Shown here: positions 6,354-44,350 of the stretch, piece after piece
Numbering within the stretch: position 1 is the stretch's first letter
Layout: every line of letters begins with the position of its first letter
Assembly (NCBI GenBank): GCA_948567375.1
Contig: OX419762.1
Span: 55,136,841 to 55,200,840 of the forward strand
Length of the DNA stretch: 64,000 nucleotides
Source: Lunularia cruciata
Lineage: Eukaryota > Streptophyta > Marchantiopsida > Lunulariales > Lunulariaceae
Direction: 5' to 3'
The notes under the pieces: generated by a model
Seen by the model: only the letters and a program-made list of their open reading frames with translations
What the model was told of the DNA's origin: nothing
Database searches by the model: none
Made by a program: the position numbers and the translations under genes

Positions 6354-6358
6354 AGTTG

Positions 6359-7090: not shown

Positions 7091-7594
7091 ATTAACAAGT
7101 AGTATATGAGTAATTGCCAAAATACCTCTAATTACACACACTACTATTCAAGCATCTAAGCATTTTTGGTGTGATGCTACAAATGGCCTCACAATATCTT
7201 TCACATATGGAATTTTACTCTTGCAAGGTAAAGAGTTTATAACAAAGTTTTAAATGGTATATCTTGTGCTATTCTTAATGGCCTAAAATGAAACAATGAA
7301 ACCATAGCTAGCAAACAAATTAATGTTAATTAATAACATAAGATGCTCCATCTTGTAAGTTCTTTTCCTTGCCCAAACCACAACTCACTCACATCCCACC
7401 TATTTGGTCTAGTGAAACTATCACTAGAACAATAATAAGCAAGCAATTCTAAATCCAAGCTCAAATATTTCTACATTGATACAAAATTAATACATAATGC
7501 AACTCGGATGTGCAAATCCTAATTATTAGCTATGAGTCAAATGAGAAACAGCATATGATGACTGCCTGCCCGCACTCAGCTTGTCATTGCCTAA
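7091..7594. other. Spacer between M2 and Harbinger derivative
   Basis: AT-rich sequence without a recognisable gene. The only note is that the left end of the Harbinger derivative lies near 7560-7595, and I could not fix a terminal inverted repeat or target duplication there. Confidence 0.4.
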
Positions 7595-24604: not shown

Positions 24605-24666
24605 ACCTCTTCTACAATTGGTTGCCCACCAAAAAGATTTGGTGGTCAGCCAATTGTAGAAGAGGT
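24605..24666. repeat. Hairpin in the M1 leader
   Basis: Outer arms ACCTCTTCTACAATTGG (24605-24621) and its exact reverse complement (24650-24666), with an inner CCCACCAAA/TTTGGTGG pair. M2 keeps the GGTGGTCAGCCAA side but I do not see the full opposite arm there. Confidence 0.8.
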
Positions 24667-25586
24667 ACGTAATATTGGTAGAGGTTGCCTAGATTTAGAG
24701 GTCAAGTTATTGGAGGTTGTCCATAGTTGGAAGTTGCTTGAATTGCCCTAGCTAGTGCTCAAGAGTGAATTGGACATGAGAAGTAAAATTGGAGTTAGAT
24801 TTGGGAACCCATCCTCCCAATTTAGGGATTTGGAGATCTTTATATTCTCAATTTGGTTCAAGTTGATAGTTAGCAAAGGATTTGGTGGTTAACCAATTGT
24901 AGAAGAGGAATGTCAAAGTTAGAGATTGCTTGAATTGCCCTAGCTAATGCTCAAGTTGGTGAAGCTTGGCAAGATTTGGAGAGAGTTTGAATTGGCAAGA
25001 AGAAAGGCCTTATTTGGCTGAATTTTAGAGGTCAAGTTGGCAAAGGTTGTCCAAAGTTGGAGGTTTTTTGAATTGTCCTAGCTTATGCTTGAGTTGGTGA
25101 AACTTGGCCAATAATACACAGTTTTGCATGTATGTGCTATTATGATATTTAGTTTGATATTATAAGCAATTGAGATATCACTTACATAGATAAAAAGGAT
25201 GATTCTATATTAGTCATGATTAGCTAAACTTAGTCATAGCTAAGATAGAAGGACCTTACTTTAGAGGAGGTGGAAAATATGAACACCACTATTTTGGATT
25301 ATATTTGTATTGACTTTATATTATTCCTAGGTGTTTGGCTTTGAGGAAAGAGTTGACAACTCTTGGACCCACAAGCCTTTTTGCTTTGGATTCTTCTATA
25401 GTCTATGGATAGCCCATGTGAAGGAATCCTTGACTTAATGATTGGGTTAAGATAAGACCACATGCTTAGGAGAATATTCCCATGAGTAAAGATATTCCTT
25501 TTGTCTTTTGACTTTATTTGACTTTTAGTCTAATAACTTGAGTTACTCCAATAATTAATAAATATGGTGCATAACTATTTCACAAG

Positions 25587-25594
25587 TATATAAA
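25587..25594 (+). promoter_or_regulatory. TATA box in the M1 LTR
   Basis: TATATAAA about 520 bases before the probable primer-binding site, in sense with the element. It is a candidate start of the genomic RNA. Confidence 0.4.
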
Positions 25595-25949
25595 CTAAGG
25601 GTGATGAGATACTCATCATCCTTTCATTTGCAACTATTTCTCTCTCATTGAATTCTCTAGTGAGCAATGGTTTGAGTCTTGGAGTGTTAGCCCTGGAGGA
25701 GTATGATGGAGTTGGGGTTCCTTGCCTTCTTAGTCCATGGTGTGCTACCATAATAGCTATAAGAGGTTCATCCCAAGTGAGACATGCCAATTCACAAGCC
25801 AGATTTGAAGAGGGTTTGAATTTGCAAGAAGAAAGGCCTAATTTGGCATTAAGAAGCTTCAAGTTATGGCCTAGAGAGGCTACAAAGGCCAACAAGCCAA
25901 CTTTCTTGTGTGAGTTTAGCCAATTTAGATGAGTTTTGGTAGTTGTTTG

Positions 25950-26015
25950 GCAATAGGGCTTGAATCCTATGTCTTTGGTTCCTAGACTAGTGCCTTAGCT
26001 AACTGGTCCACCTTC
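25950..26015 (-). repeat. tRNA-like (SINE-type) segment in the M1 leader
   Basis: Minus strand: A-box-like TGGACCAGTTAGC (26010-25998) and B-box-like GGATTCAAGCC (25967-25957). It occupies the same place and orientation as in M2 (2338-2405), so it entered before the two copies separated or is part of the family's leader. Confidence 0.5.
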
Positions 26016-26129
26016 ACTTGTTGTCCTATAATTGGTTGATTGATACCTACACACAAGTAACTTTGGCTATGAGAGGCAGTTTGATCCCATACTTGGTGAT
26101 CTTGGTATCAAGCTTAAGAGTAGATAGAG

Positions 26130-27910
26130 ACTTTTATTATGTCAAATGCCAATGGTGGAAAAGTTAGTCCATTGATTTATGAGATGGAAGGTTTTTCTTT
26201 ACACTTCTTGTGATTGGACTTCCTCCATTCTCTAGTTCCTATTTTTGCACCATGTTTGTGTGAGAGCCTCTAAATTTAGAGCATTTGTATTCTAGTGTGC
26301 TCTTTGCAGTGAGACTAGCGTGATGACCAATCAGACTATCTATGTTTCTCTTTAGTGATACAAAAAATGATGATCTACAGTTGTGAGAGTGCATATTGTG
26401 ATGGTAGGTTACAATTTTCCCTAGTGTACTTGTCCCAATTCAATGACATTAGTGAGTGGTGTTCAATTGGTGGTGACCCTTGGTGAGGTACTTGTGATAG
26501 TTATGGTTGCAATTTGAGTTCTTTTGTCACATTGGAGTTCTTTGGGGATTCTAGAGAAGATATTATTGTAGTATACAATGGATTTACATATAGTGGTACT
26601 CAATATCAACTTCTATCTTAGATCCTAGTGAAGGAGAAGATTGACTCTAAGTGGAATTTGATACAAGAGCTGATTTTGTTGAGAGTGCAATTGATGTGTT
26701 TGCACTATTGTTGTGGGACATGGACAAGATTTATGGGGCCTCCAAAGACCCCAATTGCTACTCTAGTACAATGGGTATCATTGAGTTGAATGATTTCATC
26801 TAGGAGTTTGATAGTTGATGTGATTTGTATCATATGCAAAATATGACTTTGTTTGTAACTTTCATGGCATAGAAGGGGTTGTTCCAACACTTGGAGGTTC
26901 CACCAATGGATAACTACCAGGAGTTCATGAGAGCTCACTTGGAGGAGATTGAGCTGTGGAGATAGTAGTGGTCTCCACATTATATTTCTATCATTTCAAG
27001 CTTGGTTTCTAGGGATAGATTGGCAAAACCCACAAGTTATAGCTCTATAGCATTGGTATATCCAATGGTCATGCACTAGTTGGGGACGGTGCTACTACAA
27101 GTGGAAGTATCACCATAGGAGATGGTGTAATACCAAGGTTTAACCCCATGGTGGAGTTCTTGTAGTGTTTGAGGTAGAACTACCAATGAGTGCAAATTGA
27201 CAAGCAAGAGAGCTTGAAGGAGTTCTAGAAAAAGGCAAGAAAGAGTCTACACAAGGTATACCTTGCATGAGATGGATGATCAATTTTACTCAAGGAGTTT
27301 CTAAGGCCTAGGCAGTCCAATTTTGATATGGGATCCTAGATAAGAAGTTGTGACATAGAGTACATGATGTTAAGTTATTATAGGCTACCTCACCTACTTT
27401 AGTGGTGGTCCTTAGTTTGGATAAGTGCATTAGCTCAACATGGTGGAAGAGAGAGTGGTGACATCTGGATTTAGTAAGGAGACCTCATCCATAATCATTA
27501 CTTCCTCTAGAGTCCAACAAAGTGCACCCCATCATGTTGGCTTCCAAGGGTAGAGTGGATAGCCTAGATCTTTCATAGCAAGTGGAGAGCCTAGTGAAAA
27601 TAGACCCTCATCTTCATTTTTGGGTCAATAGCAGCCAATGAGTGGTGGTGGTATTGCTTGTTGGACTTGTGGTGGACCTTATCACAAGAAAGAGTGCACT
27701 AAAGCAATGGACATGATATTGTTAGGCATCACAACCAACACAGAGACAATGTGACTATTGCCTTAGATTTGGTCACGCTAATGACTAATGCTTTGACCTT
27801 CACCCAAAGTTATGGAGTAGTAGGGCTCCTATGGCACGTGGTAGAGGAGCTCCAAGTCATGGAGGATGAGATGGTGGCAAAGGATCTACAATTGGTAGGA
27901 ACCTAGTACT
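26130..27910 (+). pseudogene. M1 Gag with two CCHC zinc knuckles, broken
   Basis: Structural protein that packages element RNA. The Gag body (about 26130-27180) carries DNYQEFMRAHLEE and is collinear with M2 (2200-1150). Two nucleocapsid knuckles of form C-x2-C-x4-H-x4-C follow. The first is CWTCGGPYHKKEC at 27659-27697. The second, CDYCLRFGHAND then a stop then C, is at 27750-27791 in another frame, followed by FDLHPKLW. Two knuckles in tandem are common in Ty3/gypsy Gag. At least one frameshift separates them and many TAG/TGA codons interrupt the body. Confidence 0.75.
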
Positions 27911-28319
27911 TGCCTTTTTTTTCTATACAACTATAGCTACTTGGATTGAGCAGTTGGAGCAAAGATTGGCTAGCATGGATATAGCTCAAAGGAGATCTGA
28001 TTTAAGGTGTTGAGGCTTTCACTTCTTATACTTGTGATAGAGATGTTTGCACTTTATGTGCAAAGTAGCACAAGTATATACATCTACCATAGTGGCTAAG
28101 AGTGCAATACATGCTTTAGAGCCTAGAGGAGCATTAGTGGAGTTGGACTCACAAAGTGGAGAGGTTAGTAGATAGGTCATACTCCTCCAATATTTCATAC
28201 TCTTTAAGGCACTGTAGACAACATCCATGGTCCTTAGACATCCCAATGTAGGTGTGGTAGGAGGTGATGGAGCACATGATGTACTAGATGCTAGTTAGTT
28301 ACTTACTACTACATAAATT

Positions 28320-29280
28320 GAGTCTAGCACAATGATGGGGGCAGCTCAATTAATTATATACTTCCCTTTGTTCTCAACCAATGACATCTTTACATTAGGA
28401 GTTGACCCAACTCCAATGTTTTGGTTAGCTACCACACTTTGTGAGAATAGAGATGATGTAGTTCTTGCTTCTAGAGCAAAGGTAGTTGATAATAGAGCTG
28501 ACTTGGTTAAGGAACATGGGATCCATTTAGCAGCTAGAGATTTATGGAAGTAGCAAGAGCTAGGTTAGAGGAGTTATCAACAAGACATACCTTTGAGTGA
28601 GCCCGGTTCACACTTGGAGTTGTCCTATTGGATAAATATAGTGTGATTTTCTATTTGGTGGGACCTTCTAGGAAGTTCTATACACCACCAAAGGTCTTAT
28701 TAGACTCTAGTGCATGGCCCTTTATGTTGAGGAAGGTAATAGTTGTAAGTCTTGAGCTACAAAAGACCAATGTAGAGAGGTGTTTATTTTTTATCTAAAC
28801 ATCTCTAAGGAGTGGTTCTATATAGTACAGCATATGTGAGGAGCTCATTCTCCAGATTCAGCTCGGTCATCTAACTAATAGCTCTATTGTGAGAGTTCAA
28901 GCCATTGCGGTAGTAGTAGAGTCATATGATGTGCTAGTTGGTGGAGCAATATTATATCCCATGGGTTTAAGTATTGATTACTGGGATGAGACAACCTACT
29001 ATAGGCCAAGTTGGTGAGTTAGGTGAGAGATAGGTATGTTGCCTACCAATACACATTAGTAGTAACAATCTTAGCTCACTATAGTCAAGGACTATGGCAT
29101 TATTTTCAGCATTTTGTGGTTATGTTACTTGGCTTGGTGACTTATTGGAGAAGAATGTCCATGCGGAGGATACCCTAGTACTAGAGGAGATCACTTGGAT
29201 TTGGAGGACAAGAGGGATTGTTCCATCTACCTTGGATTTTCCTTTGTGGAGTTCTGAGGAGGCATTGGAACAATAGGCTT
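28320..29280 (+). pseudogene. M1 retropepsin-type protease region
   Basis: This would cut the polyprotein. An open leader (28332-28553, FTLGVDPTPMFWLATTLCEN) precedes the active-site string LLDSSAWPFML, with the catalytic Asp at 28703-28705. The usual D-[ST]-G is D-S-S here, so Gly has become Ser. Downstream SYDVLVGGAILYPMGLSIDY (about 28921-28980) fits the second, hydrophobic-Gly half of the fold. A further open block (29094-29276) links to the methyltransferase domain. Stops at several places break the frame. The assignment is by motif and by position between Gag and RT. Confidence 0.65.
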
Positions 29281-29408
29281 GGAGGGAAGCCTTTGTACCA
29301 CTAGGAGACCAATATGAGGCTGAGCCTCTAAAGTCTATTATCTTTTCACCTTTGGATATCATGCTTATTGCTTGGTAGTATCTAGTAGAAGGAGTATGCC
29401 TATAACAA

Positions 29409-30053
29409 TTGTTTTGTGGAATCAACACTAGACTAACTACGTTACTATAAATAGTTATATAGGTTTAGAAGTACTTGTATGTGGACAAAGATGACACAGT
29501 TAGGTAAGTCTCTCTACATCATGTGGCACACTTTTTTTATTAGTGCCCTAAGTTATTTCCAATGCTAATAATCAAGGGTTATTAGAGGAGATCCTACAAG
29601 CAAATATTTCCTTATTGGTGGTGCAAGATTTGGAGAGACATGGTCCTACTCATTTGGCAATTTTTGGATGGCCAAGTCAAGGACATATCTATGCTAGCAA
29701 AGATTAGGGCCTACAATCCTTGTTTTGTTGTGTTATGGGAGATTTAACATATATTACAACATCTCCAAGTTCATCAATCTATTTCTTGTACCTTTGATGA
29801 ATAATTCTTGTACAGGGGTGGTGGCAAGTACACATCATATCCATTCTTGTATGGGACCTGTTGTGTTGTTGGATGTAACCATAGTGGGATCACAGGCTCA
29901 TCATGTTTGTCTTTGGTGGATGAAACTCTTACATAGAGAGGTTCTATAGCATGCTTATGATGGGGTTTCATGACTAGATCACCTTATTGTTGATGATATT
30001 TTGGATGTTGGGCATGAGTCTCAAATGGTGATAGTGGCTTATAAGTCATCTAT
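29409..30053 (+). pseudogene. M1 C5 cytosine methyltransferase-like domain, N-terminal part
   Basis: C5 methyltransferases move a methyl group from S-adenosylmethionine to cytosine in DNA. Visible motifs: motif I-like LFCGINTRL (29409-29438; family form DLFxGxGG), then motif II-like YLYVDKDD (the acidic residues that hold the cofactor, about 29475-29495). Next is motif IV-like GWPSQGH (29666-29686), where the catalytic Cys of P-C-Q is Ser. Last is GPVVLLDVTIVGSQAHHVCL (from 29854), at the place of motif VIII. Frameshifts and stops separate them. The domain is cut at 30053 by G1 and resumes at 39439. Its place between protease and RT argues for a captured domain within the polyprotein. The Cys-to-Ser change and the stops make it inactive here. 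Confidence 0.7.
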
Positions 30054-30465
30054 TGTAAAAGATAAAGACCAAGGAGAGAAATAGGAGAATTGAAACTCAC
30101 ATTTGGACACTTGAATGTGGGAAAACTCTTAATGCCTAACATGAGCTTCAACTTTGGTATTTATAGGTAGCATACATGGCCCTTGAGAAGCTTCTCAAGA
30201 AGCTTCCTTGAGCTACTTTCTTAGAGTGAAAGCCAAATTAACCAGGAAGCTTCTCAAGAAGCTTCCTTCTAGAAGTCATCTGCTTGGCATGCAAGTTAAG
30301 CTAGTTAGAAGCTTCTAGAAGCTACCTGCTTGGGGTGCAGGTTAAGCTTGTCGGAAAGCTCTCCAAGAAGCTTCCTAGATGATTCTAGAATATTTTGGGC
30401 TAATTTGGCTTATTCTCTACTTTGTTAGCCTTATTAATTACATTGAAAAACTCCATATTGTTGTA
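30054..30465 (-). repeat. 3' LTR of G1
   Basis: Matches 39013-39438 along its whole length. It begins TGTAAAAGAT on the plus strand, as the other LTR begins TGTAAAATAC. It holds a TATA box (30158-30165, minus) and six GAAGCTTC palindromes. The terminal CA on the other side has decayed. Confidence 0.9.
30158..30374 (-). promoter_or_regulatory. G1 LTR promoter: TATA box with heat-shock-element-like array
   Basis: TATAAATA on the minus strand at 30165-30158. Upstream in transcription sense lie six GAAGCTTC palindromes (30187, 30199, 30246, 30258, 30308, 30367). At 30308-30320 the spacing GAAGCTTCTAGAA gives three contiguous 5-bp units of the heat-shock element (GAA-nn-TTC-nn-GAA). The other LTR keeps TATA at 39117-39124 and a similar array. 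Function is inferred. Confidence 0.55.
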
Positions 30466-30757
30466 TATTCCTCCACCGCTAGTTGGTGACGTCTTTGTTG
30501 CAATTGAAGATTCAAACTCCTGGTTGGTCGTCTGTGCATTTTAGAGGTGAGAAAGAGGTTCCCATTTGTGGCATCATGAAAGGGATACACTTTCCAAAGG
30601 ACTTTGTCCTCTATATGTTGGCAATGTCCTCGTTAAATGTGGCAACATGCAAGGGTATGATCAACTTTGTACTCCTCATGATCATTGACAAGGATGGGAG
30701 GAGATGGAGGAGGTTGGACATGAGAGGAAACAGGAGATGGGTTAGGAACAAAGGGTT

Positions 30758-31560
30758 TCAACTTGGAAATGTGAAAGACAGGATGGATATGCATATGACA
30801 AGGTAAGGCAAGTCAATAAGCAACCAAAGAGATGATTTGGGTGATATCAAAGGGGTCCAATTAGGGGTAAGTTTACAAACTTGGGTATCAAGTGTAAGGG
30901 TTAGGTTACTAGAGGATAGCATGACTTTATCACCAACTTCAAAGGTGAGATCATGACGATGATGGTCTACATATTGTTTTTGACGATTCTGAGCAACAAG
31001 GAGGTGAGATTTGGCTTGTTGGAGAGATTGGGTTATGGTGGTCAAGAAGGTAGAAGTATGAGTTGACCTTAGATGGAGGAGGAGAAAGAAGAGAATCTAG
31101 GGTTTAGGTGGATCTTGGACAAAATTGAGAAAGAAACAAGAAAATCTAGTGCTTGCTTATTTGGAATTCTTGTAGGCAAATTTTGCAATTGCAAGACATT
31201 CATCCTAATGGGTATGGTGGACATTGACAAAGGCACGTAGCATATCCTCCAAGGTACAATTTTCATGTTTAGTTTGTCCACTATTTGAGGATGATAGGCC
31301 ATGGACAAAGCAAGCTTGGTGTCGGGTATCTGGAAGAGTGCTTGCCAAAACTTCTCAATGAATTGAGGATCATGGTTTGAGATGAGTACATGTGGCATCC
31401 CATGATGCGTGAAGACATTATTGAAGTAGATTTAAGCTAAGGTTGGAGCATCCACGGTATTAAAGGTTGGTGCCAAGTGGATTTGCTTACTATGCTTATC
31501 CATAAACACCACAGTTGTTGTGTGTCCTTGCTTTGTCTTGGGCAAGGATGTGATGAGATC
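30758..31560 (-). pseudogene. G1 integrase
   Basis: Inserts element cDNA into the genome. The core (31069-31560) holds HGMPHVLISNHDPQFIEKFW (second catalytic Asp region) and SMAYHPQ; where the family usually has a Gln-Thr-Asp-Gly-type string after this, the sequence reads IVDKLN. The catalytic Glu region follows in decayed form. The C-terminal part (30758-31045) has AKSHLLVAQNRQKQYVDHHR and FEVGDKVML, typical of the integrase C-terminal domain. A chromodomain might follow toward the LTR, but I could not identify one with confidence. Confidence 0.8.
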
Positions 31561-31859
31561 CAAGCTCACATGTCTCCATCAAGCGGATGGATATGGGAGT
31601 AGTTGAAGGAGTCCACTGAACTTCTAGTTGTTGGCCTTGTTACATTGGTAGCTCTCACATGATCTGACAAACTCTCAAACATCTCATGTCATGTTAGGCC
31701 ATCACCATTGGCATTGGAGAGTACCCAAGATCTTGTACACACCCATGTGACCAGCTATTGGTAAATCATGGGCTTCTTGAAGGCGCACGCACTAGTTGGA
31801 GATCAACTTTGGCTAGAACATAGATCTGGTCCTCATGGAATAGAAGGTCTTCCTTGAAG

Positions 31860-33256
31860 TAGAAGGTGTTTTACTCCTTATCACATGCTATAAGACGACC
31901 ATGTACCATTTGGAAGAATGGATCTTGTTGTAGAGCTGATCAAAACTCATTTTGGACCTTGGAGTCAATTGATACCGTTGTGATGAGAGGAAGAGTTTTC
32001 AAATCAGGTTGTCGTGATAGAGCATCAAGGATGACATGGAACCAACCTAGTTTTTACTCAAGTTTGATGTCAAACAATTGGAGTTGTTCTCCCCATCAAT
32101 GATGTTGACTCTTCATGTGTTCCAAGTGTAAGGTCTGCAACAATGGTTTGTAATCAATTTGCATGATCACTTGTTTCCCCAAGAGAAAATGCCTCCATAC
32201 CTTGGTGATATATACCATTGCAAGTTATTCTTGATCTCAAGTAGAGTAATTTCTTTCAGCCATATTTAGTTAGTGAGACACAAAGGCAATGGGACGTAGT
32301 CCATCTGGGAATTCCTATTGCAACACGGCTCCAATTGCAAAGTTGGAAGTATCAAAATCAACCACACAAGGTAGTTGAGGATCATATGTTTGAGAATGGG
32401 CCTTGAAGACACCATATGTTTCAACTAGAATGCTTCTTTGTGCTTGGTGGCCCACTTAAGCTCAAGTTCTTCCCCAAGAGGTGAGTCAATGGTGCAGCCA
32501 CATGAGCATAATAATGGATGAACCATCGGTAAAAAAACTGGCCAATCTATTATATGCTCATACTTTTGTAGAATCCTTTGGAGATGCCAATCAGTAATGG
32601 CCTTGATTTTCTCCTCTTCCTTCTCAATCCTCTCCAATGAGATCTTGTGACCCAAGAAGGTAACTTCCTTCTGACAAAAGGTACACTTTGACTTCTTATA
32701 GTAAAACAAAATTTCATTGTCATAGTCGTCTTAGGACTTCTTGCACATGATTCAAATGTTCTGGTTGTCTTGTTATAGATTAAAATATCATCCAAGAACA
32801 CCACCATGTACCAATCCAATAGTCCGTCCAACACCTGATGCATCTAATCCATGAAGACTTCTGGAGTATAAGTGAGTCTGAAAGGTAGAACTCTCCACTC
32901 AAAATGCTCATACCTTGTGCAAAAGGCAGTCTTTTGCACATCTTCCTTATCAATGTGGATTTGTAAGTAGACACCGTGAAGATCCAACTTGGAAAAGTGT
33001 TGTGCTCCACTCAATTGATCAAGAAAGTCATCAATCCAAGGCAAGGGATATGCATTCTTCATTGTTTGCTCATTGAGCTCATGGTAATCAATATAGAAAC
33101 AAAGTCTTCCATCCTTCTTTGGAACAAACAATACCGGTGCTCCCTAAGGAGATTTGTTGTGTTGTATGAAGTGCTTCTCCAAAAACTCCATAAGTGTTGT
33201 TTGCAACTCCTCCAACTCCTTTGGTGAGAGTTGATAGATTGGTCTTTTCCCTATTC
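31860..33256 (-). pseudogene. G1 reverse transcriptase and RNase H
   Basis: Copies element RNA to DNA. RT: SPKELEELQTTLMEFLEKHF, FVPKKDGRLCFYIDYHELNE, FSKLDLHGVYLQIHI and the intact catalytic string VFLDDILIYNK (about 32775-32805), then VTFLGHKIS. RNase H follows (DFDTSNFAIGAVLQ near 32340). Stops are scattered. Its N-terminal edge is cut at 33256/37003 by element C: the matching upstream piece, GMPFKIELLPG, lies at about 37045-37010. Confidence 0.85.
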
Positions 33257-36200
33257 TGTGGTACCCACATTTTTGTTTTTTTTCTTATTTTTGAAGAAGA
33301 AGTATACAAAAGAAGTCATATTGCGTATAGATGGCATTAGAAGGCAAAGAAAGTATCCTTGGGTTGTAACCCGATGTTAAGTGACTTCATGTCAAAAGTC
33401 AAGGTACTCAGAATTGCCCTATCAGCATACAACCCAAAGTAAGGAGACTTTGTCTTGGGGGTGCTCAACCCAAGGCAAGGACAGTGTAACAAATTTTCTT
33501 TGGGGTTGGACATTCAAAAAGGTACCGCACACAAAAATGGCTTTCATACAAGCGGTGGAAAATTGACAGTGATATGAGCATGCAGGAAGTGTGATTCTTT
33601 GTAGAAACTCAAAGTGAAGAAAGACGGAGAAGGCGCACCACTATAAGACTCGAGATAGAAACGAAGAGATGATGAGTAATTTTCCATTGTCATTAAGAAG
33701 TCATCATGAGAGAGATCATGGAAAGGGAAGTGTAGTAAGAGATGCATTGGTGTGTCAAGAGGAAGTCAGGAGAGTTAGTCCGGGAATCAGTTGAAAGAGT
33801 AGCCACCAACCTAGAGTAGAGGAGAGTAAGATGGGAGGTGGGAAGAAGAACTCTAAATTTGCGATGAGAAATCATGCAATTTGGAGATTAGATGTGATTG
33901 CAAGAATCAAAGTCTTGAGTAGGCTTTGGATCATATTCTTGGCATGGAATTGGAAATTAGCTTTCCAGATTTCATGATGGAGATCATCGAGAGTAGATGT
34001 CTTGATGGGCCTCAGGAAGAAGGGAAGAGAGGAAATCCAGCTTGATGGATAGAGTCAGATTGGAGATTAGTACTCAGAAGAGAGGCGGGCACGGATCACA
34101 AAGCCATGTTCTTGGGGAAGAGAGAAGTAGTTGAAGAAACCCAAAAAGTGGGAGATGCCTTCTCTTCAAATGCATGAAGAATGGCTACAAAGTGGAGAGT
34201 TATAAAGATCTTGTGAGGAGAGGCATTGTAAGTGCAATGATGGCTATCTTGAAGCCGGAGCAAACCACTTATGTGATGAAACATCAAGCGGTGTTCTTCC
34301 ACAAGATGTTTGCAGGAGAGCCAATCAATTGGGCAAAGTGTTTTCATCAGTGTGTGAGACAAATAGTGTGGAACTTCCAAGACAGTTGCCTCCACACTAC
34401 ATTGTGCCGTTTGTAGCACATTTCTGTTTGGGACTGAACTTGTTGAATGCGGCGGAGAGACACAAGATGGTGTTGCACTTCCATACCAATTTGAGAAGAG
34501 ATGTTGATATGGAGGAGCAGCAGTACATCTTGCAAATAAGGAGCAATGATGAGTACCATGCACAAATGGGGCAGAGTGTGCAATTGAAGGTGAACACTCC
34601 AAAGTTGAAGAAGAGGAGTCGACAAGGAGAAGAAGAAGTAGTAGCATCAAGACCTTGGAAGGCCAAACAGGTGAACCCAAGGAAAGACTTGGTGGTAATC
34701 ACGTTGTCAGGCAAAGAATCAGAAGGGGAGGCCGAGTGCAAGTCAGAAGACTCGGAGAAGGAGGAAGAACCCAAATTCATGTTGCAGAGGGGGGAAACAA
34801 GCTGTGAAAGTGAAGATGGAGTGGAGATGCAGTCAGTACTTGAGGAGGAAGAAGTAAAGATGGAGACGGAAGAAGAAGGTAACCCGAGACCCAAAGACAA
34901 AGTTTTGGAGCCGGAGGAGAAGAGGGTGACTATTCAAAGAGGAGTCCATTCCAGATGAAAGGCAAAGTATGAAGCGGGACCAAGTAAAGTAAGAGAAGTG
35001 GAGAGTGGAATTTTGGGGAGTGAAGAATCCATTCCCATAAGGCGATTGTGGCTAAGAAGACAAGTATCAAGTCAAGAAGAGGCAAAGAAGGAGAAAATTC
35101 CGCAAGTCAAGGTAAACCCAAGTGAAGGAGTAGAGTATTTGCGGGAGGTTGTGTGCTCGTTGTTAGTAAAGTTGGAGTAGAAGAAGAAGGAAATGCAGTC
35201 AAAGTGTCCGGAGGTGAAGATTGTGTTGCAAGTATTAGCACAATTAGAGGAAGAGAACTCGGATTTGAAGAAGAGCATAATCCAAGGTGAGGAGGAAAGG
35301 GAAGTACTACGAGTAGATGCAATAGTACAGAATCAGGTAATTGAAAACTTAAAGAAGGAAGTGGAGAGTAGAGAGAGAATAATAGAGTAGAATGACCTAG
35401 CAAGAGAAAGATAGATAGTGGAGAATGAGATCTTGAAACATTAGTTTGTTGATTTGTGATTAGAGATTATTCATGCTATGGAAAATGTAGAGGAGAAGAA
35501 GCAACTCTAGCAAAGAGAGTTGACAGTGAGATATAGAGAGGAAGAAAGATTGAGAGAGTTACTTTGTAGTCTGGAGGAGAAGATTGTTCAAAAGGAGAAG
35601 GATAAGGAGACAGTGAAAGCCGAGTTTGAGGCAGAATTGGCAATATATCAAGAAGATTGGCTTGCAGATTGAGAACAGGAGAGAAGAACAAGACTTGAGC
35701 CATTAAGGGAGATTGTAACAAAGATGAACGCAATGGTGAGTACAAAAGCCAGTGTGCGGATTGAAGAAACAAGACTGCATGAGTTGAAGTTGCTGGTGCA
35801 GGAGATGAGGAGGAGAAATGCAAAGGATAAGGACTTGAATGCCTTGCTTATTAGTCTCAAAACTCGTGTAGATAGGAAGATATTAGAAGTGGAAGATAAT
35901 ATCACGATTAGATTAGATTTAGTAAAGTTGGAGATAGATAAACTTTGGAAAGAGGTAAGAGCAAAGCCCAAAGTAGATAACATAGGAGTACATATATCTT
36001 TGGAGTTACCATCGGAGATATTAGAGAAGAGTGGGTCAGGAGATAGAGATTTAGAAAGAATACCTGTGATAGGAATTGTAGATCAAAAAGAAGAATTAGA
36101 AGAATTGGTAAAGGAATTAGTAGTTGTGAAACCCGAGGATAGAGTAGTGTGTGAGATTACTTTGGGATTGGAAGCCAAGGCAGAAGTAAACATTGGATCG

Positions 36201-37002
36201 GAGTAGTAATAATTTTGAGATATGAAGAGGTAGATATGAAGAGGTGGTTTGTCATTTTGAATTTGTAGGTAGGAAAAGTTGTTGTAGAATGGTATAGTTG
36301 TTAGTAATTGTCGAGTGCTTCACTATTTAAAGGTGGCATTCACAATCATATGTTGTTCAGTGCTCATAATTTTTGAGCATAGATAAAGCAAAGTGCTATG
36401 AAGCAGTGCTTGTTGTTTGAGCTTAATTCTGAGTATTAGTTTTATGTTTGTGTTTGTGAGTGTGTGGAGAATTTTGAAGTGCAAGTCATTGTGCTTGTTG
36501 GATGTTGGATTCCGGAGCCTTGATCTTCATTCTGTGTGTTTGATCTTGAATGAAGTGCAATTGGAGCTATGCCTTGACAAATCTGAGAGGAATTGTAGTG
36601 TTGATGGTATTCTACATTTGTGAGTGCAACATAGAGTTGATGTGAAGCAATTTTGATCGAGGAATTTATGCCTATAGTGGAAGGATGAAACACAATTCTG
36701 AGGTGAAGTTATTTTGTAGTGAAGTGTTGTTTTTAGGAGAGACTGAATCATCACAGTCATGATTGTTTGGAAAGATTTGATGGAGTTGTGATTAAGTGTG
36801 ACAAATTGTTGTGATGAGACTGCGAGTCAATGCTTGTTACTCTCTTTTGGTTGTGGTTTCTACTTGAGAGATTATAGACTCAACCAAGAAGAACTGAAAT
36901 TGTTACTGTGCTTCATATTTGACCAATTCTGACTAGTATCTCTACAGGAACAAACTTTACTTACCTGATTACTGCAAAAGTGATATTTTCCGGGTTATCA
37001 CA
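33257..37002 (+). mobile_element. Element C: third 3.7-kb TG...CA unit, inside G1
   Basis: Begins TGTGGTACCCACATT (33257) and ends CGGGTTATCACA (37002). Flanks are TATTC (33252-33256) and TACTC (37003-37007), a 5-bp target duplication with one C/T difference. Because G1 coding sequence continues across it, both ends are fixed with confidence. Length is 3746 bp. It is the youngest insertion in the M1-G1-C nest. Confidence 0.8.
33330..36206 (+). pseudogene. Element C single ORF: best preserved copy of the unknown coiled-coil protein
   Basis: Function unknown. From about 34174 to 36206 nearly 680 codons are readable, with one frame change near 34380 and stops that are mostly TAG. Parts in order: core (34174-34416: MKNGYKVESYKDLVRRGIV, PINWAKCFHQCVRQIVWNFQ); continuation in the next frame (PPHYIVPFVAHFCLGLNLLN); a long acidic region (about 34620-34950) rich in Glu/Lys/Ser; then a predicted coiled coil (35193-35390 and 35724-36206) with QLEEENSDLKKSI, LKTRVDRKILEVEDN and LVKLEIDKLWKEV. 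The stop at 36206 is followed by about 800 bp of shared noncoding sequence. No polymerase, protease, integrase, DDE motif or zinc finger is seen. Confidence 0.65.
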
Positions 37003-37760
37003 TACTCCCTGGTAATAACTCAATCTTGAAGGGCATACCACGATTGGAGGGTAATCCCTTTGGTAGATCATCTAGAAACACATCCGCAAACTACTAAATT
37101 ATCTTATCAATCTTACTTATCGTATCTTGATGAGGCTCTTGGCCCTCCTCAGATTGTCCTTGCGCAATTGGTTTAATCCACACCCAAAAAGAGACTTGTC
37201 TTCCTCAAAAGCTTGCTCTATGGCCGCTTCACTAAACTTCCCATCTAGGGACTCATCTTTCTTCAAAGCTTGCTCCATGGCTGCTTTCCTAGTAAACTTC
37301 CCATCTTAGGACTCATCTCCCTTCAAAGCTTGCTCTATGGCTACCTTCTCGACAAACTTCCCATGTTGGAACTGACTATTTTTGGGTGTCTTACTTAGAG
37401 GTGCCAGACAACCTAATTGGAAATTCCTACTTTGGTGTTGTACTTGAATTTGTCATTGTGTCCAATCAAATTGAACCTTGTGACGTTCAAGCCAAGGTAG
37501 TCTTAGAATGATATCGTAGTGTAGAGGTGCCACTACAAACCTCATACACTCCATATAGTCCTTCCCAATCTTGAAGGTAACAAGATGCAAGGTTTTGGAA
37601 TGTAGAACCTTTTCTACCATTTGCCATCACTAATCTACTTCCAATTATTAGTTTGATAGGAATACCCACTTCCTTTGCTTCTTGCATAGACATGCAATTC
37701 TTTGAACTTCCAAAATCAACCAAAATCCTACACCCTGATTAGATATCATACCTTGCAAGT
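37003..37760 (-). pseudogene. G1 protease and RT N-terminal linker
   Basis: 37487-37723 is open and begins MVDFGSSKNCMSMQEAKEVG, matching the retropepsin active-site region of gypsy elements (usual form D-S/T-G-A; here D-F-G-S). Downstream toward 37010 the frame is decayed and ends with GMPFKIELLPG, the usual linker into RT, at the insertion point of C. Confidence 0.65.
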
Positions 37761-37919
37761 GAAGCAAACTTGCATATGTCTAACCTTCAAAACAATTGGA
37801 TCTAATCAAGCTCCCTATAGGAGACTTGAAATCTACTATTGGGATTCCTTATTTCTTTGATCATTCTGCTCCACAAACTCCTTCTGGGCAACTTGTTGAG
37901 GTCGCTCATTCTTGAGTGG

Positions 37920-38780
37920 ACATTCAACAATGCAATGTCCCAATTAGTGACAATAAAAACAACCACTATTTTATCATAGTTTCTCTCTATCTACAATGCT
38001 TAGTGGTTTCCGTTGAATAGCATCAATCTCCATTGGTACCGGCTCCTCCACCCGTGTGTTATGTATTGGTAGGTTCTGTGGAGGTCAAGGTCAAGACCAA
38101 GTTGTGGCAACCAAGCAATCAAAACATTTGGCCAACCGCATGGCTTCCTCCAAGTGTTGTGGCTCTCACATGGTTACCTCTAATTTGGTTCTTGACTTCA
38201 AGCCCCTCACAAATTGATCCAGAGCTTCACCTTCCAATATATTTGGAATTTTCATGATGGTGTTCTGGAATTGCGTGATTGACTTCTTATAGAGCCAATT
38301 TGTTTCAATTTTGCCAACCTATCTTGTGCAGCTTGTGTGGCATTTATAGCTTGGAACTAACTAATTATTGCACTCCTTAATTCTACCCATATCAAGATTG
38401 GTGCAACAATTTGTCATTCAGCTTTTTCCACTCAAAATCTCCACCATAGTTTTGCTACTCCATCCAATTGGCTAGAAGCCAAGAGAATTTGTTTTTGCTT
38501 GTCTTGCAAATTGGTAGCTTCAAAATAACATTCACAATCAAACAAAAATTTCTCCACTACACCCGGGAGATTCTTGCCTTCAAGTACCTTGGGTTTAAGG
38601 AATCGGATTTGATCTTCTCCTTCTCAAACTGGTACTCTCTCTACGTGCTCTTGTGGTCAAATATCTCATTCATCCAACAATCAAGTAAGGTGCTTGATTT
38701 GTTGTTGCATAGCAAGGATAGCATCGGGTATTTTTGCCATGGTTTCTACTCTATCACGCCACCCCTAATCTATCTAATTT
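37920..38780 (-). pseudogene. G1 Gag and CCHC knuckle
   Basis: The string EEPVPMEIDAIQ (about 38010-38050) is the usual spacer before the nucleocapsid of plant gypsy Gag. A single knuckle follows: CFYCH-stop-LGHCIVEC (37961-37920), that is C-x2-C-x4-H-x4-C with one internal stop. The Gag body upstream (to about 38780) is decayed. Confidence 0.7.
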
Positions 38781-38999
38781 ATTAACATATAGAAGTAGCA
38801 CGTCCATTTTTCTCCATAAGTTACAATCGGAAGCACCAAGGGTTCCTCAGATATGGTGATCATATGCAAAAAAATCTTGTCCAAAATGTGAGGTGATGAA
38901 TTGTGTGAAACAATGCTTGGGTAGTACTTGGACACAAAAATTCCAATGGTTTGGTGGAAGTGGATTTGGTGGTCCATAAATTCTATCCATCCCATTCCT

Positions 39000-39011
39000 G
39001 CTTTGATACCA
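39000..39011 (-). other. G1 primer-binding site
   Basis: TGGTATCAAAGC on the minus strand, complementary to the 3' end of an initiator Met tRNA, one base inside the 5' LTR. Confidence 0.85.
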
Positions 39012-39012
39012 A

Positions 39013-39438
39013 TGTAAAATACCAAGACCAAGGAGAGAAATAAGAGAATGGAAACTCACATTGGGACACTTGAATGTGGGAAAAATCTGAATGCCTAGCA
39101 TGAGCTTTGGCTTTGGTATTTATAGGTAGCATACAAGGCCCTTGAGAAGCTTCTCAAGAAGCTTCCTTGAGCTGCTTTCTTAGAGTGCAAGCCAAGTTGA
39201 CTAGTAAGTTTCTCAAGAAGCTTCCTTCTAGAAATCGTCTACTTGGCATGCAAGCTAAGCTAGTTAGAAGCTTCTAGACGCTTCCTTCTAAAAGCTACCT
39301 GCTTTGGGTGCAAGTTAAGCTAGTCAGGAAGCTCTCCAAGAAGCCTCCTAGATGCTTCTAGAATATTTTGGGCTAATTTAGCATATTCTCTACTTTGTTA
39401 GCCTTACTAACTATGTCGTTAAACTCCATATTGTTACA
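39013..39438 (-). repeat. 5' LTR of G1
   Basis: Element-sense ends are TGTAACAATATGGAG (at 39438) and ...ATTTTACA (at 39013). TATAAATA lies at 39124-39117 with a GAAGCTTC array upstream of it (about 39144-39370). Confidence 0.9.
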
Positions 39439-40124
39439 TCTATATAATAATTAACCTTGTTGGATAGCCCAAAGTCACTTTACCTACACTTATGAGTTTC
39501 CAAAACTCCCATGCTTTTTGAAAGGGAGGTCTTAGACTTGTTTGGGACTCACAATTACAATAATTGATAGAATCTAACATTGATGAGAGGAAGCATGCAA
39601 TGTGTTTTTGTATCGGTATTACCATTGTTACAATAGTGTTAGAGGCATCCAAATGTCAAGTGTTAGTTCAGGCTATATACCTAAATTGTGAGCCTTGGCT
39701 TGGTATAGTAGCATAAGATGCACTTGATATGTATCAAGACTTGGACACTTGTGAGCTTTATGTCTATCAAAACAATTCAAGCACATGTTGAGGGCAATAG
39801 ACCAAGTTGGCATGGTATTCTTGGGACACATTCAATGACTACTAGTGAGAGTGGTGTACTTGGGGTCCATCCATTTGAGCGTGGTCTACTTGGGTTACAC
39901 ACTTGGTCTACTTGGGATGCAACTAGAGGATGAATGGAGCTTGTAACCAAAGCAAAGAAAGTTTTTGTGCTGAGGTTGGAGGGTAACATTACTACATCCA
40001 AATGCATATTCCACTCCAACATCAATTATAGAGGATACTTGGGAGCCAAATGGTGGATCCAAGCTTACAAGAGGAGAAAGACGGAGAGTTTGAAGGTTCT
40101 TGAGGAGTTACACAAGTTGTTTTA
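39439..40124 (+). pseudogene. M1 methyltransferase-like domain, C-terminal part, and linker to RT
   Basis: Resumes right after the G1 target duplication. Readable in one frame are TLPTLMSFQNSHAF, LRLVWDSQLQ and then NIDERKHAMCF (39576-39608). The last occupies the place of methyltransferase motif IX (family form R-E-x-A-x-x-Q-G-F). QVLVQAIYLNCEPWL (about 39650-39695) follows at the place of motif X (G-N-A/S-V). From 39718 a poorly conserved linker (open pieces 39718-39933 and 39934-40176) leads into RT. Together with 29409-30053 this makes a domain of roughly 300 residues, plausible for a compact C5 methyltransferase. The motif IX and X calls are weaker than I and IV. Confidence 0.55.
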
Positions 40125-41460
40125 CCTTCCATATGAAGGATTTGGATGCTCTAAAAGGACTTGGTATTTGGATTGAGCTAACTAATGATACACCAATTTT
40201 TTGACATCTATAGATATAGTGATATGGAGAGAGCATTGACTCAAAGTTGGAGTAGAGAACTTTTTGAGGCTAGTTTGGTGGAGATTTCACATGGAGAGTA
40301 TGCTTCAACTACAATGATGCAAGCTAAGAAGGATATGCATGGAAATTGCACATATAAGCAGATTTGTAGGGATTATCATCTTATCACCCAATAGACTAGG
40401 GCTGATTGGTATGCTATGCCTACACTAGAAGAGATCTTTGATGTGATTGTGCATGCAAATTCTCCAATAATTTAGATCTTTGAGTAGGATGTTATCAATT
40501 TCCAATCTAAAAGGAGGACACGTCCAAGACAACATTTTGGGCTATTGATCCTCATGGCAGGGGTACATTATATTAGTGGAGGTTATGACCATTTTGATTG
40601 AAGAACACTTTTGTTGAGCTCCAAATGGTTGTGGACAAGATCCTAGCAGGATTAGATTTTGCTTGGTGTTATATTGATGGCATTCTGATCTATAGCACTA
40701 TTGTGAAGGAGCATGAGAGAAATTTGTTGGAGGTGTTTGAGAGGTTGAGATCTCATTGACTCAAATGACATCTTGGAAAGTGCAGATTCTTCCATGAGTA
40801 GTTTGAGTATTTGGGTCACACTATCTACCCTAGAGGACTTGGTATTCAAAAATCAAGGTGGAGGCTATTGCACATATTACTTGGCCTATAGATGTGAGTA
40901 GAGTGTGAGCATTCCTTGGGTTGGTAGACTTCTATCACTAATATGTTAGAGGATTAAGTGCTATTGCCAAGGCTTTGACAAAGTTGGCCAAGCTTACACA
41001 AGACTTGTGTTAGAGAGATGAGCAAGAGAGAGCTTTTATAGAGCTCAAGGAGAGGTTGAAATCTACACTTATTCTTAGGAGACCAATGAGAGGATGATCA
41101 TTTAAGGTTCATACACATTGGAGTACATTGGGGCTTGGAGCAATGTTTACCCAATAGATGATGAGGAGAAGGAGTTTATGGTGTTTAATGCTAGTTTCTC
41201 CAACAATTTAGCCAAGGCAAAGCATACTTCATATGAGAGAAAGTGCTTAGCAATAATGTCAGTAGTAGCACATTTCTAATGTTACCTATTTGGTAACCTT
41301 TTCACTCTCATCATTGATCATCAACCATTGAAGTGGTTGATGGAGTCCAACAAGCTTTTAGGGGAGCTTGCCAATGAGCTCTGATTTTACAAGAGTATGA
41401 TTTCATCATTATTCACATACTTGGAATGGTGAACCATGATGTTTTGGTTTGATCTTGCTG
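40125..41460 (+). pseudogene. M1 reverse transcriptase and RNase H
   Basis: RT: HGEYASTTMMQAKKDMHGN and ICRDYHLITQ (40185-40394), then the catalytic string CYIDGILIYS (about 40667-40696), where the second Asp of Y-x-D-D is Gly. EYLGHTIYPRGLGIQ and AFLGLVDFYH follow. RNase H: ASFSNNLAKAKHTSYERKC and DHQPLKWLMES (about 41190-41345), then ALILQEYDFIIIH. Stops and small frameshifts occur throughout. A 68-bp inverted duplication (41358-41558) sits at the end of RNase H. Confidence 0.8.
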
Positions 41461-41558
41461 GCTAGGAAATGGTGAATTAGATTCACATATTCCAAGTATG
41501 TGAATAATGATGAAATCATACTCTTGTAAAATCAGAGCCCATTGGCAAGCTCCCCTAA
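41358..41558. repeat. 68-bp near-perfect inverted duplication
   Basis: Arm 41358-41425 is repeated as its reverse complement at 41491-41558 with one mismatch in 68, around a 65-base spacer. The left arm is native RNase H coding sequence of M1. The right arm is the extra, inverted copy. Confidence 0.9.
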
Positions 41559-41562
41559 GCCA

Positions 41563-41617
41563 TTTAGAGTAAGCTACATGGTAGAAACCCATTTTCTACC
41601 ATGTAGCTTACTCTAAA
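41563..41617. repeat. Perfect 25-bp hairpin
   Basis: Arm TTTAGAGTAAGCTACATGG... (41563-41587), 5-base loop, exact reverse complement 41593-41617. It begins five bases after the 68-bp inverted duplication. Confidence 0.9.
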
Positions 41618-42480
41618 TTCATTATTGGTGGCATGGTATGTAGACTAATTTATAGCATTTTGTTACCATATGTGTGGTTTGTGACCAAGTTTGAGCATCA
41701 TTTAATGCTCTTATGCCATAATTACACCCGTTACTATCATGGGATTGGGTTAAAGTTGGAGTCTGGACTTTGTTGGACCTTTACCTTTGATTGTGAGACA
41801 TCATTTGTATATTTTGGTTATGGTAGAGCACTTCTCTAAGTGGATTGAGTTGGTGGCACTTCTTAAGTCCAATGAACAACATACTCATTCTTTGATTGGT
41901 TTCTTAGTCATTTTGATGCACCAATTGAAGTTTTGACTAATCAAGGTATAGAGTTCTTGGTGGAGTTTCAAGTCTTGTGTGACAAGGCCTTAATTTATCA
42001 TCATACAACCTCCTAGGATTACCTTGAGGCAAATAGCTTAGTAGAGGGCTTACCATAGAGAGTGGTTTAGACAATGAAGAGAGGATTGCATAAGTATGGT
42101 TTAGAGAGAGGCCACTTGGGAGTTTGGGATCTCCAATTACCTTGGTTGGCCATAGGCTATTGGTTTGTCATGGGCTATTGGTTTAATCGGCAAGCCTCCT
42201 TAGCATCTTTTGCTCCTTTTTTTCTACTCTATGGACAAGATCCAGATTTACAAGTAGCCATTACAGCTATCATAATGTTATTGTAGTTTAGGACTTAGAT
42301 GATCCAAACATATAAGTGAGCGCATGTTCTCAATGGGCAGAGATTTTTTGGTGAGTGATACCGATGGACTTTGAAAATTTAGCAATTGCTCAACATAGAG
42401 ATACCTTATGCTATGCTACTATTTGAGGAGGAGGTTATAGACCCTCAATCTATCAATTTCATCCAGATGACTATATACAT
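41618..42480 (+). pseudogene. M1 integrase
   Basis: Core strings: SLDFVGPLP and LYILVMVEHFSKWIELVALL (about 41760-41870) around the first catalytic Asp, then a decayed stretch. MKRGLHKYGLERGHLG, LPWLAIGYWF and FNRQASLASFAPFFLLYGQD follow (42074-42240), matching the conserved C-terminal half of gypsy integrases. A short internal repeat of GGCTATTGGTTTGTCATG-like sequence (about 42150-42180) disturbs one string. The frame is broken in several places. Confidence 0.75.
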
Positions 42481-42554
42481 GTGCACCATACCACCTCACA
42501 AACATTGATTGCACTATGGACCCAAGTTTGGTACTTGTACATGCAGGCTTCTGG

Positions 42555-42689
42555 TGTATGTTATGTGGCTCTTTTGGAGGAGCTCTTACTATGTTGGTGT
42601 GTGATGGTTGTTTGAGAGGATGGCATATGGTATTTTTTACCCCTCCCCTCGTGATGGTTCCTCAAGGATAGTGGTGATGTCCTAGATGT
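42555..42689 (+). pseudogene. M1 C-terminal PHD finger
   Basis: PHD fingers bind histone H3 tails and so read chromatin state. In one frame: CMLCG (42555), then a short Gly/Ala linker, LVCDGCLRGWHMVF (third and fourth Cys, His, and the fifth Cys changed to Phe), TPPLVMVPQG, stop, W, stop, CPRC ending at 42689. Spacing C-x2-C...C-x2-C-x4-H-x2-[C]...W-x-C-x2-C fits the C4HC3 pattern, including the Trp two residues before the last Cys pair. It sits downstream of integrase, where other gypsy elements carry a chromodomain. One ligand and two codons are lost. Confidence 0.75.
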
Positions 42690-42872
42690 ACTTGACTTAT
42701 AGCTAGTTCTCCCTTTATGTGACATAGATTGTAGATAGGTGAATAATGATGGGGCTCAATAGCACCCGGTCTCTTGATCTTGGCCCACCATAGGGCATAT
42801 CACATACTTGGAATAAATGACAATTTGGAGTTAGAGGGACCTAATTGCCAACTTGGGGACAATTGTGTTATT

Positions 42873-43660
42873 TTAGAGTTCATGAATTTATGTATGAGTT
42901 GTGCTTCTATAGTGTATGATGTTTAGTTATCATTGCATTTGTAGCACCAAAGCTAGTTTTCTCCGATGTTAGAGTGGTAGTGTTGGTAATCATAGATATT
43001 TTGGTAGGTTCTCATGGACTACTCAAAGTTTATCTACCGGGTTTGATTCTTTTTTGGATAGAATAAAACCACTCATTATTATTTTCTTTCTCCCCCAACG
43101 AGGGAATAAACTCCCCAGATTGGTTGCGCTAGTGCCCGAGAATAAAGTCTACAAAAGAAAAGCCAAAGATTGGATTTAGCCCCCCTTCCCCACTGCCAGA
43201 TTCTCACACCCCCACACCACACCACACTTCTCCACACTAGATGGCAACTAGATTTCATGTTAGTTCTATTCATCACATGAGGGATCTACCATCACTTGAA
43301 CCGTTCACACTGTCAAATGTGTAATCCATGGTGCCCTTAGGGCTAGAGCCCTAGGTCGAACATAGGGGTATACTTTTGAAGTGCAGCTCTAGAAAGCTCA
43401 CTTCTCTTATGTTGAGCCTTTGACTTCTTGGATATGGTAGACAAAGACCGTCGAGCATAGTCTGGAATCTCTTAGCTAAAATGGGTGTGGCTTGATTGGA
43501 ATTAATGCACAATTGTCAACATATTGATGAGTAGAGGATTGAGTGCAAGTGAGATTTGAGTGGAAAAGTGAACTTATTAATGTTGCACTTTAGAATTCAT
43601 GTATGACTTATGTATGAGTTGTACTCCTATGGTGTATGATGTTAATAGCGAGTTGAGTAG
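42873..43660 (+). repeat. Truncated right LTR of M1 with an insertion
   Basis: 42940-43585 matches the start of the left LTR (23818 to about 24240), then stops. About 210 bp at 43025-43238 have no counterpart in the left LTR and look like a separate insertion of unknown type. A block of about 55 bp flanks the LTR piece on both sides: 42873-42925 and 43589-43643 share TATGTATGAGTTGT and GTGTATGATGTTA-type strings. Confidence 0.6.
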
Positions 43661-44350
43661 CTAGGTATATACACCCGATACCATGTATGCTCTTTGTACA
43701 AAACTTGCCAACTTCTTCTTGAAAAACTACCGTTCTTTGAGAAGAAAGTATTTGAAAGAACTTTCAGTTTGCTCTCGAGATAGAGAAAATCATACCGAGG
43801 ATATAGCAGTCTTAGGGACTCCCTACTACTCTCTTAATTCGTAAATTTATGTACAGCTCCCGCATATCAATCATCCACTAATGTTGTATTTCTTACTTGT
43901 CCGATGGTTCGTGTTCCTTTCAGTTGCATCTTCCCACTTGCTCGATGTCTGTCCTTATCTTTCAACTGCATCCTCAGTTTTTGGGCACTGCTTGTTCTTT
44001 TATGACATGCTGCTGCATACCAGTGTAGATATTGAATGTTATATTTCGCTCATGGAACTTGTCGGTGTTCGCTTCTGCTGGGGATGGATTTCGCTCAGTG
44101 ATATTTGAATTTTGTCAATTGTATATTGTATGTGTTTATGTGTTTATTTCCTGTGGCTTGCAATGGCATGACTCGGTTTGTTTCCGTTCTTGCATCCATT
44201 TCTTTGCTTCCTTCTGCATGTCTGGGGATTACGTAAGTTCGATCCTATGTGGGATCACCTGTTCTGAGAACGGTTTCTGCCCCCATTATATATATAGAAT
44301 CGTATATCTGGCCTGTTCCTGGAGCAAATGCTGATTTAGTAACTGCTCAC
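43661..44350. other. Low-copy host sequence, no clear gene
   Basis: Composition changes from repeat to host-like after about 43660. A TATA-like string (TATATATATAG, about 44287) lies just before the possible LRR remnant. Open frames here lack recognisable motifs. Confidence 0.35.

Follow-up and report, generated by a model that had tools for sequence, protein, structure and literature searches.

The stretch of Lunularia cruciata DNA analyzed here (the window: 64,000 nucleotides of contig OX419762.1, positions 55,136,841 to 55,200,840 of the forward strand) contains a decayed retroelement, M1, whose polyprotein includes peptides resembling the conserved motifs of C5 cytosine methyltransferases. 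Does a Gypsy-type element of a liverwort encode such an enzyme and, if so, what would the element gain from it? The family to which M1 belongs almost certainly carries a C5 cytosine methyltransferase of the DNMT3 type (the DNMT domain) in its polyprotein. M1 itself is a dead copy of this family, which is large and includes recent insertions. An explanation joining this identity with methylation by the enzyme of the element's own DNA and with integration guided by a PHD finger is considered, as a whole, probable on balance.

The original prediction placed six methyltransferase-like peptides between the protease (PR) and the reverse transcriptase (RT) of M1. Indeed, all were present on the + strand and in the predicted order: LFCGINTRL (29409-29435), YVDKDD (29478-29495), GWPSQGH (29666-29686), SQAHHVCLWW (29890-29919), NIDERKHAMCF (39576-39608) and QAIYLN (39669-39686), which we take to be motifs I, II, IV, VIII, IX and X, respectively. 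The peptides form two clusters, 29409-29919 and 39576-39686. Between the clusters, a Ty3/gypsy element with long terminal repeats (LTRs), foreign to M1, occupies 30054..39438 on the minus strand. It is flanked by a 5-bp target site duplication (TSD), TCTAT, at 30049-30053 and 39439-39443; its LTRs (30054-30462 and 39013-39435) are 89-90% identical and its outermost dinucleotides are TG at 30054 and CA at 39438. This nested minus-strand element is inserted into the DNMT region of the older + strand M1. The first part of the M1 domain, with motifs I, II, IV (Ser for Cys) and VIII, lies at 29364..30053 (tblastn match to 30057) and the last part, with motifs IX and X, at 39447..39701 (E 1e-26), both on the + strand. 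The methyltransferase predicted at 29409..39700 was therefore found, but not as one uninterrupted stretch: a 9.4-kb foreign element splits the domain and, since it sits inside it, most of 29409-39700 belongs to another element.

Comparison of an intact domain with the two M1 pieces by tblastn gave E values of 1.4e-39, 1.3e-26 and 2e-31. With 200 dinucleotide shuffles of the first M1 piece, some match at a loose limit was obtained in 134, the best reaching 25 bits. The M1 copy was correctly described as dead: the Cys of motif IV is replaced by Ser, the ENVP motif of other copies is lost, and M1 alone carries many stop codons.

The L. cruciata genome searched comprised 565,766,749 bases in 74 contigs. 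Counterparts of the six peptides in other genomic copies, in the same order, read ELFGGISTGL, YVERDE, GWPCQGH, SRAHRLRLWW, NADERERAMGF and QAMDLN. The pattern GWPxQGH was found at 1832 exact places, and its reversed control at none; in the listed 100, which all lie on contig C1, the catalytic residue is Cys in 98, Phe in one and Tyr in one. A search with the domain yielded 13,809 first-look candidates, of which the best 118 were scored; each of these covers 342 or 343 of the 343 residues at 96-100% identity, with open frames of up to 1448 amino acids. The Pfam model PF00145 gave 123 scored matches in the genome, all over its cut-off, a part of which were inspected; two are host genes, a DNMT3 (L016) and a DRM (L017). 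Forty related copies were aligned, with L003 and L004 left out as they did not align with the family and L018 identified with L009 as a single copy. All 40 retain the Cys codon; 39 read PCQ, and in L013 a stop follows the Cys. The P-C-Q that M1 has lost is thus present in other copies, as is motif I. Some of the aligned copies have stops in the domain. As a rough figure, the family would fill about 18 Mb, or 3% of the genome, if all 1832 places were full 9.9-kb elements.

The checks proposed with the original prediction included a profile search and a structure prediction, and neither refuted it. A 519-residue piece of copy L009, with the conserved motifs in order, matched PF00145 at 32.4 bits (cut-off 22) over residues 161-240 only, and its top match in the PDB was DNMT3A (1.9e-9). 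A profile of 24 homologues matched DNMT3A at E 1.9e-26, in three stretches in unrearranged order; the same profile matched 4onj, labelled only DNA methyltransferase and presumably a DRM, at 6.4e-13, DRM2 at 1.3e-9, and HaeIII, HhaI and DNMT2 at 7e-9 to 9e-8. An AlphaFold2 model of the domain was predicted with confidence (predicted local distance difference test, pLDDT, 93.2; predicted template modelling score, pTM, 0.92), and conserved positions run along the entire domain. Motif IV reads PCN in DNMT3A and PCQ in both the element enzyme and the host DNMT3, a gene found in at least two open pieces with its motifs unrearranged. The motif order of the host DRM is rearranged. A DRM-like origin of the element enzyme was ruled out on its unrearranged order and the weaker DRM match in the profile search.

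The coding order in the family is gag, protease, DNMT, RT, RNase H, integrase and PHD finger. Pfam models for RT, RNase H, H2C2 and rve matched L009, and the best PDB match of the RT was to Ty3 RT (3.1e-61; it is the second entry, at 5.1e-61, that carries the name Ty3). The PHD finger follows the integrase in copy L013 (PF00628, 6e-11), and one is found 3′ of the integrase also in Marchantia P0051 and in P0043, P0056 and P0064. Four copies (L013, L014, L015 and L009, the last with a short A1) are bounded by split direct repeats in the arrangement A1 - coding - B1 - A2 - B2, with A about 449 bp long (the A1 of L009 comprises 77 bp) and B about 107 bp. The Ty3/gypsy assignment of the original prediction thus holds for the gypsy-type pol but not for ordinary LTRs, the two identical terminal repeats being replaced by A1...B1A2B2. 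Such split repeats are a feature of DIRS/PAT/Ngaro elements; a tyrosine recombinase and the absence of TSDs, also features of that group, were not seen. No tyrosine recombinase was among the Pfam matches of the scanned pieces, the leader having been viewed only as open reading frames (ORFs), and a 4-bp TSD (TTTA, AGTG, TAGC) flanks three of the four copies inspected, L014 having none. The 4-bp TSDs and the rve integrase indicate integration of the DDE type. The A1 and A2 repeats differ by 1.35% in L013, 2.25% in L015, 10.2% in L014 and at 0 of 73 sites in L009, whereas in M1 their identity is 71.6% over 296 columns; M1 is therefore old and the family has recent insertions.

M1, including the nested insertion, extends over 23806..43680 (+), as delimited by blastn of the extended copy L013 and by its edge sequences. 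The ends of the family are TG...CA; M1 starts with TG but ends with TA, and the bases flanking it are ACAT and CCAT. When segments of other copies were compared with M1 one by one, tblastn recovered gag, the PR region, DNMT, RT/RNase H, integrase and the PHD finger in that order, all on the + strand. The A1 repeat (23806..24245, end approximate) matches the A repeat of L013 and is followed by a broken gag (26481..28001; L009 gag piece, E 7.5e-150), in which CCHC-like knuckles were seen by eye only, and by the protease region (28044..29138; L009 PR piece, E 3.5e-105). Downstream of the DNMT domain lie a broken RT and RNase H (40442..41443, E 1.4e-116), a broken integrase with H2C2 and DDE core (41605..42507, E 3.7e-90 and 6.5e-69), a broken PHD finger at the integrase C-terminus (42555..42692, tblastn), and the repeats B1 (partial, 42862..42923), A2 (approximate, 42924..43580) and B2, the 3′ end (43581..43680). 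Neither the gag piece nor the PR piece of L009 gave a match in a Pfam scan. The protease label rests on homologues: an aspartyl protease was found below the curated cut-off in P0036 and P0071, and in the precomputed Pfam annotation of P0020, P0027, P0031, P0033 and P0077.

Two protein searches returned 89 and 173 homologues (the best 120 of the 173 listed), with 202 distinct identifiers. The named sources include Marchantia polymorpha, M. paleacea, Calypogeia fissa, Riccia sorocarpa, Sphagnum species, Closterium, Klebsormidium nitens and Monoraphidium neglectum; further homologues come from metagenomes, and several are fragments without another visible element domain. The domain order of the homologues reveals two places for the DNMT domain in pol. 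At position 1, between PR and RT, it is found in bryophytes and others (PR-DNMT-RT), and the K. nitens protein P0071 shows PR-DNMT. At position 2, between RNase H and integrase, it is found in Monoraphidium and in unnamed proteins (RT-RNase H-DNMT-integrase), many with only part of that order. P0106, named as a bacterial metagenome-assembled genome, groups with the rows of position 1; its contig may have been misassigned.

A retroelement of this kind is already known from K. nitens. DNMT-carrying retroelements from dinoflagellates and a single charophyte, correctly named in the original prediction, were reported by de Mendoza et al. 2018 (PMC5890265), in whose main text KnitGypsy-Dnmt3 has DIRS-like repeats and Gypsy-like domains. 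The Lunularia family shares with it the Gypsy-type pol, the DNMT3-type domain within pol and the A-coding-B-A-B repeats; it differs in its bryophyte host, whose genome has the motif at 1832 places, and in the PHD finger and 4-bp TSDs seen here, the term PHD being absent from that main text. We infer that P0071 is one of the elements of that report. It has CCHC, PR and DNMT in order and falls in the same DNMT clade as the family, and is 36% identical to it in the domain. SymbioDIRS-Dnmt3 of Symbiodinium, described in the same main text, likewise has a DNMT3-type domain in pol, A-coding-B-A-B repeats and two domain orders; it is of the DIRS class with a tyrosine recombinase, whereas the Lunularia family has an rve integrase and TSDs, and the trees below include no SymbioDIRS sequence. 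Among algal and metagenomic Ty3/gypsy elements, P0043, P0058, P0064 and P0084 (Monoraphidium) share the DNMT clade and a related RT, and P0043, P0056 and P0064 share the PHD finger after the integrase, but their DNMT domain lies between RNase H and integrase (the P0084 stretch ends after DNMT). P0043 differs further in adding a Tudor domain: this single protein combines DNMT and integrase with a PHD finger and a Tudor domain of the PTM/DIR17-like kind, possibly as a chromatin-reading tail. The host DNMT3 and DRM are C5 methyltransferases as well, the former unrearranged and with PCQ, but fall outside the clade of element enzymes (DNMT3 in both trees, DRM in the first tree only). Among the best 120 of 984 matches listed, the host DRM is nearest to Riccia (74% identity over 73% of the query; 63% over 92% for another Riccia protein) and more distant from Calypogeia (55% over 84%) and Sphagnum (54% over 85%), as would be likely for a complex thalloid liverwort. 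Passages of PMC12344493, citing the 2018 paper, also state that some DNMT3 members reported in streptophytes and dinoflagellates are embedded in retrotransposons, naming Copia and DIRS. Among the matches listed in searches of the open-access literature, some of which showed only part of their matches and in which subscription papers are mostly missing, none described a land-plant retroelement with a DNMT. As far as that literature shows, several features are new: that a land plant contains such a family, and in abundance; its PHD finger and TSDs; and the single clade with two positions in pol.

How often the enzyme was captured was addressed with trees. In a DNMT tree of 55 domains, 48 homologue rows (38 of known position and 10 without) formed one clade (100/100) apart from the sampled host DNMT3, human DNMT3A and five phage enzymes, the DNMT3 sample being only two genes plus phages. 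This second tree was built without four long or gappy rows: the KashFlow phage, Closterium P0054, the permuted host DRM and P0089. In the first tree, which kept them, support for the clade was 97/89 and KashFlow, on a very long branch, fell inside it. The position-2 rows formed a clade in both this first DNMT tree (100/99) and an RT tree (99/100, 19 rows, 7 of which fill less than half of the columns). Monophyly of the position-1 enzymes, a grouping defined only once the first tree had been seen, was weakly rejected for DNMT in the second tree (approximately unbiased (AU) test, p 0.036), so that position 2 looks nested; for RT it was not rejected (AU p 0.235). The simplest reading of these sequences is that there was one capture between PR and RT and a later, single move to between RNase H and integrase, free-standing DNMT3 genes being thinly sampled. 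Alternatively, related DNMT3-type genes could have been captured two or more times independently, with one capture at each position. This would account for the two clear positions and for the position-2 clade in both trees; it is unlikely, as the 48 rows form one clade against two DNMT3s and five phage enzymes and a position-1 clade is weakly rejected, in a sample with few free-standing enzymes and no Symbiodinium sequence. A phage origin is not favored either. By tblastn, 448 phage records matched the domain, those listed at 25-35% identity and E down to 2e-15, mostly over about half of it, and five of the six phage enzymes branch apart.

The Sphagnum element groups with Marchantia in the DNMT trees and not outside the liverwort rows, and the Marchantia, Calypogeia and Sphagnum rows depart from the host phylogeny. 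Horizontal transfer or old sub-lineages are possible.

Conservation of the domain was compared with that of the rest of the element. Identity between L009 and Marchantia P0003 is 59% in the gag piece, 53% in PR and 74% in DNMT. Against Marchantia P0018, P0008 and P0080, RT/RNase H is 77, 69 and 63% and DNMT 66, 71 and 62% identical, indicating that DNMT and RT/RNase H are about equally conserved. Among the Lunularia copies, changes that alter an amino acid or create a stop were counted against silent ones at non-CpG sites. In DNMT the ratio was 77:48 among singletons and 5:13 among variants shared by at least four copies (Fisher p 0.0098); in PR it was 97:35 and 6:11, respectively (p 0.0036). 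For the K. nitens domain, the main text of PMC5890265 gives Ka/Ks < 0.2.

That an element keeps a de novo methyltransferase under selection is a paradox, because de novo methyltransferases silence transposons. In the proposed mechanism, the polyprotein would carry the methyltransferase into the particle, beside RT; the enzyme would act on cytosines of the new element DNA following reverse transcription; the PHD finger would guide integration toward chromatin that bears a particular histone mark; and new copies would reach the genome already marked like host heterochromatin. Methylation of the element's own DNA after reverse transcription would be the likeliest role for the enzyme, although we hold this step slightly short of probable. 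According to the main text of PMC5890265, two DNMT3 domains from Symbiodinium retroelements are able to methylate CG sites in yeast. The copies themselves show CG/CHG decay of the kind that methylated DNA would accumulate. Minor alleles of the C-to-T type occur per site-copy at 0.033 for CG, 0.026 for CHG and 0.0047 for CHH, and the observed/expected CpG ratio is 0.06 and 0.13 in two parts of M1, 0.48 in L009 and 0.74 in the window at 44-64 kb.

Several results count against an enzyme that is selected for and acts on the element's own DNA. The LTR pair of the nested element shows the same bias (CG 3/4, CHG 4/10, CHH 18/154; small numbers), and a search for the domain within the nested element gave no match, so the decay may reflect host methylation only; from the sequences, it fits germ-line methylation of both M1's family and the nested element. 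When the Klebsormidium relative was assayed in yeast, no methylation was obtained, a result its authors call inconclusive in the main text of PMC5890265. The selection tests exclude CpG changes, and they are weaker when variants of at least two copies are pooled (DNMT p 0.032); for RT, tested only in this pooled form, the contrast is not significant (p 0.165). Finally, 30 of the loci behind the 40 aligned copies were the best by protein score in the domain search, a choice that favors intact motifs; this bias should lessen the contrast between singletons and shared variants.

Among other roles for the enzyme, modification of RNA (element RNA or primer tRNA) rather than DNA is improbable, though the best placed of them. 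Some enzymes of the fold act on tRNA; the profile matches DNMT2 and a tRNA cytosine-38 methyltransferase at 5e-8 to 9e-8, and the yeast assay of the Klebsormidium domain showed, inconclusively, no activity on DNA. The matches to DNMT3A and 3B are far stronger, however (1.9e-26 at best), and the two Symbiodinium domains methylate DNA. Somewhat less likely again is a domain that is structural, targeting or a decoy, with catalysis secondary. Such a role would suit the PHD finger that is also in the coding part and the conserved positions along the whole domain, but the catalytic residues are kept: at the catalytic place, to which 148 of the 202 homologues aligned, 141 have Cys, three another residue and four a gap (141 of 144 residues), and E149 is kept in 158 of 170. 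A captured, functionless gene decaying in all copies as a passenger is very improbable. The window copy is dead, two of the 100 listed motif places have Phe or Tyr and some copies have stops in the domain, but frames of up to 1448 residues remain open through it, the domain is better conserved than gag or PR, and shared variants are depleted in amino acid changes; the dead passenger was rejected on this depletion and on the conservation across species. Chance likeness of scattered peptides, which the stops of M1 alone might suggest, is virtually inconceivable and was ruled out by M1 matches down to E 1.4e-39 against shuffles of at most 25 bits, by the Pfam match, by the model and by the homologues.

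Other sequences in the window touch on the family or on the nested element. A second decayed copy of the family, or more than one, lies on the minus strand, with leader and gag at 1078-2631, an A repeat and leader at 6353-7193, and other sequence between. Within the nested element, about 4.3 kb (33143-37487) between its protease and RT contain + strand ORFs at 34206-34958 and 35673-36206 whose products look acidic or coiled-coil-like. Frames similar to these by eye occur on the other strand at 3514-4092 and 17582-17974, and the region is possibly a further nested repeat.

For Lunularia, the family may have contributed to the Gypsy bursts credited with the size of its genome. The main text of PMC9985172 attributes this size to Ty3/Gypsy bursts and does not contain the word methyltransferase. 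A joint reading would go further, and is offered as a doubtful conjecture: that one capture of a DNMT3-type gene by a split-direct-repeat Gypsy element founded a clade across green algae, streptophyte algae, mosses and liverworts, with one later move from between PR and RT to between RNase H and integrase; that self-methylated cDNA and PHD guidance would let copies enter already silenced and make large copy numbers bearable; and that this would be a main driver of the doubled Lunularia genome. The clade with its two positions in pol offers a possible shared history for the green-lineage cases. Why a parasite carries an enzyme of the silencing type can now be studied in land plants, in liverworts and peat mosses, besides green algae, and annotated homologues in the genetic model Marchantia polymorpha make the question testable by ordinary genetics.

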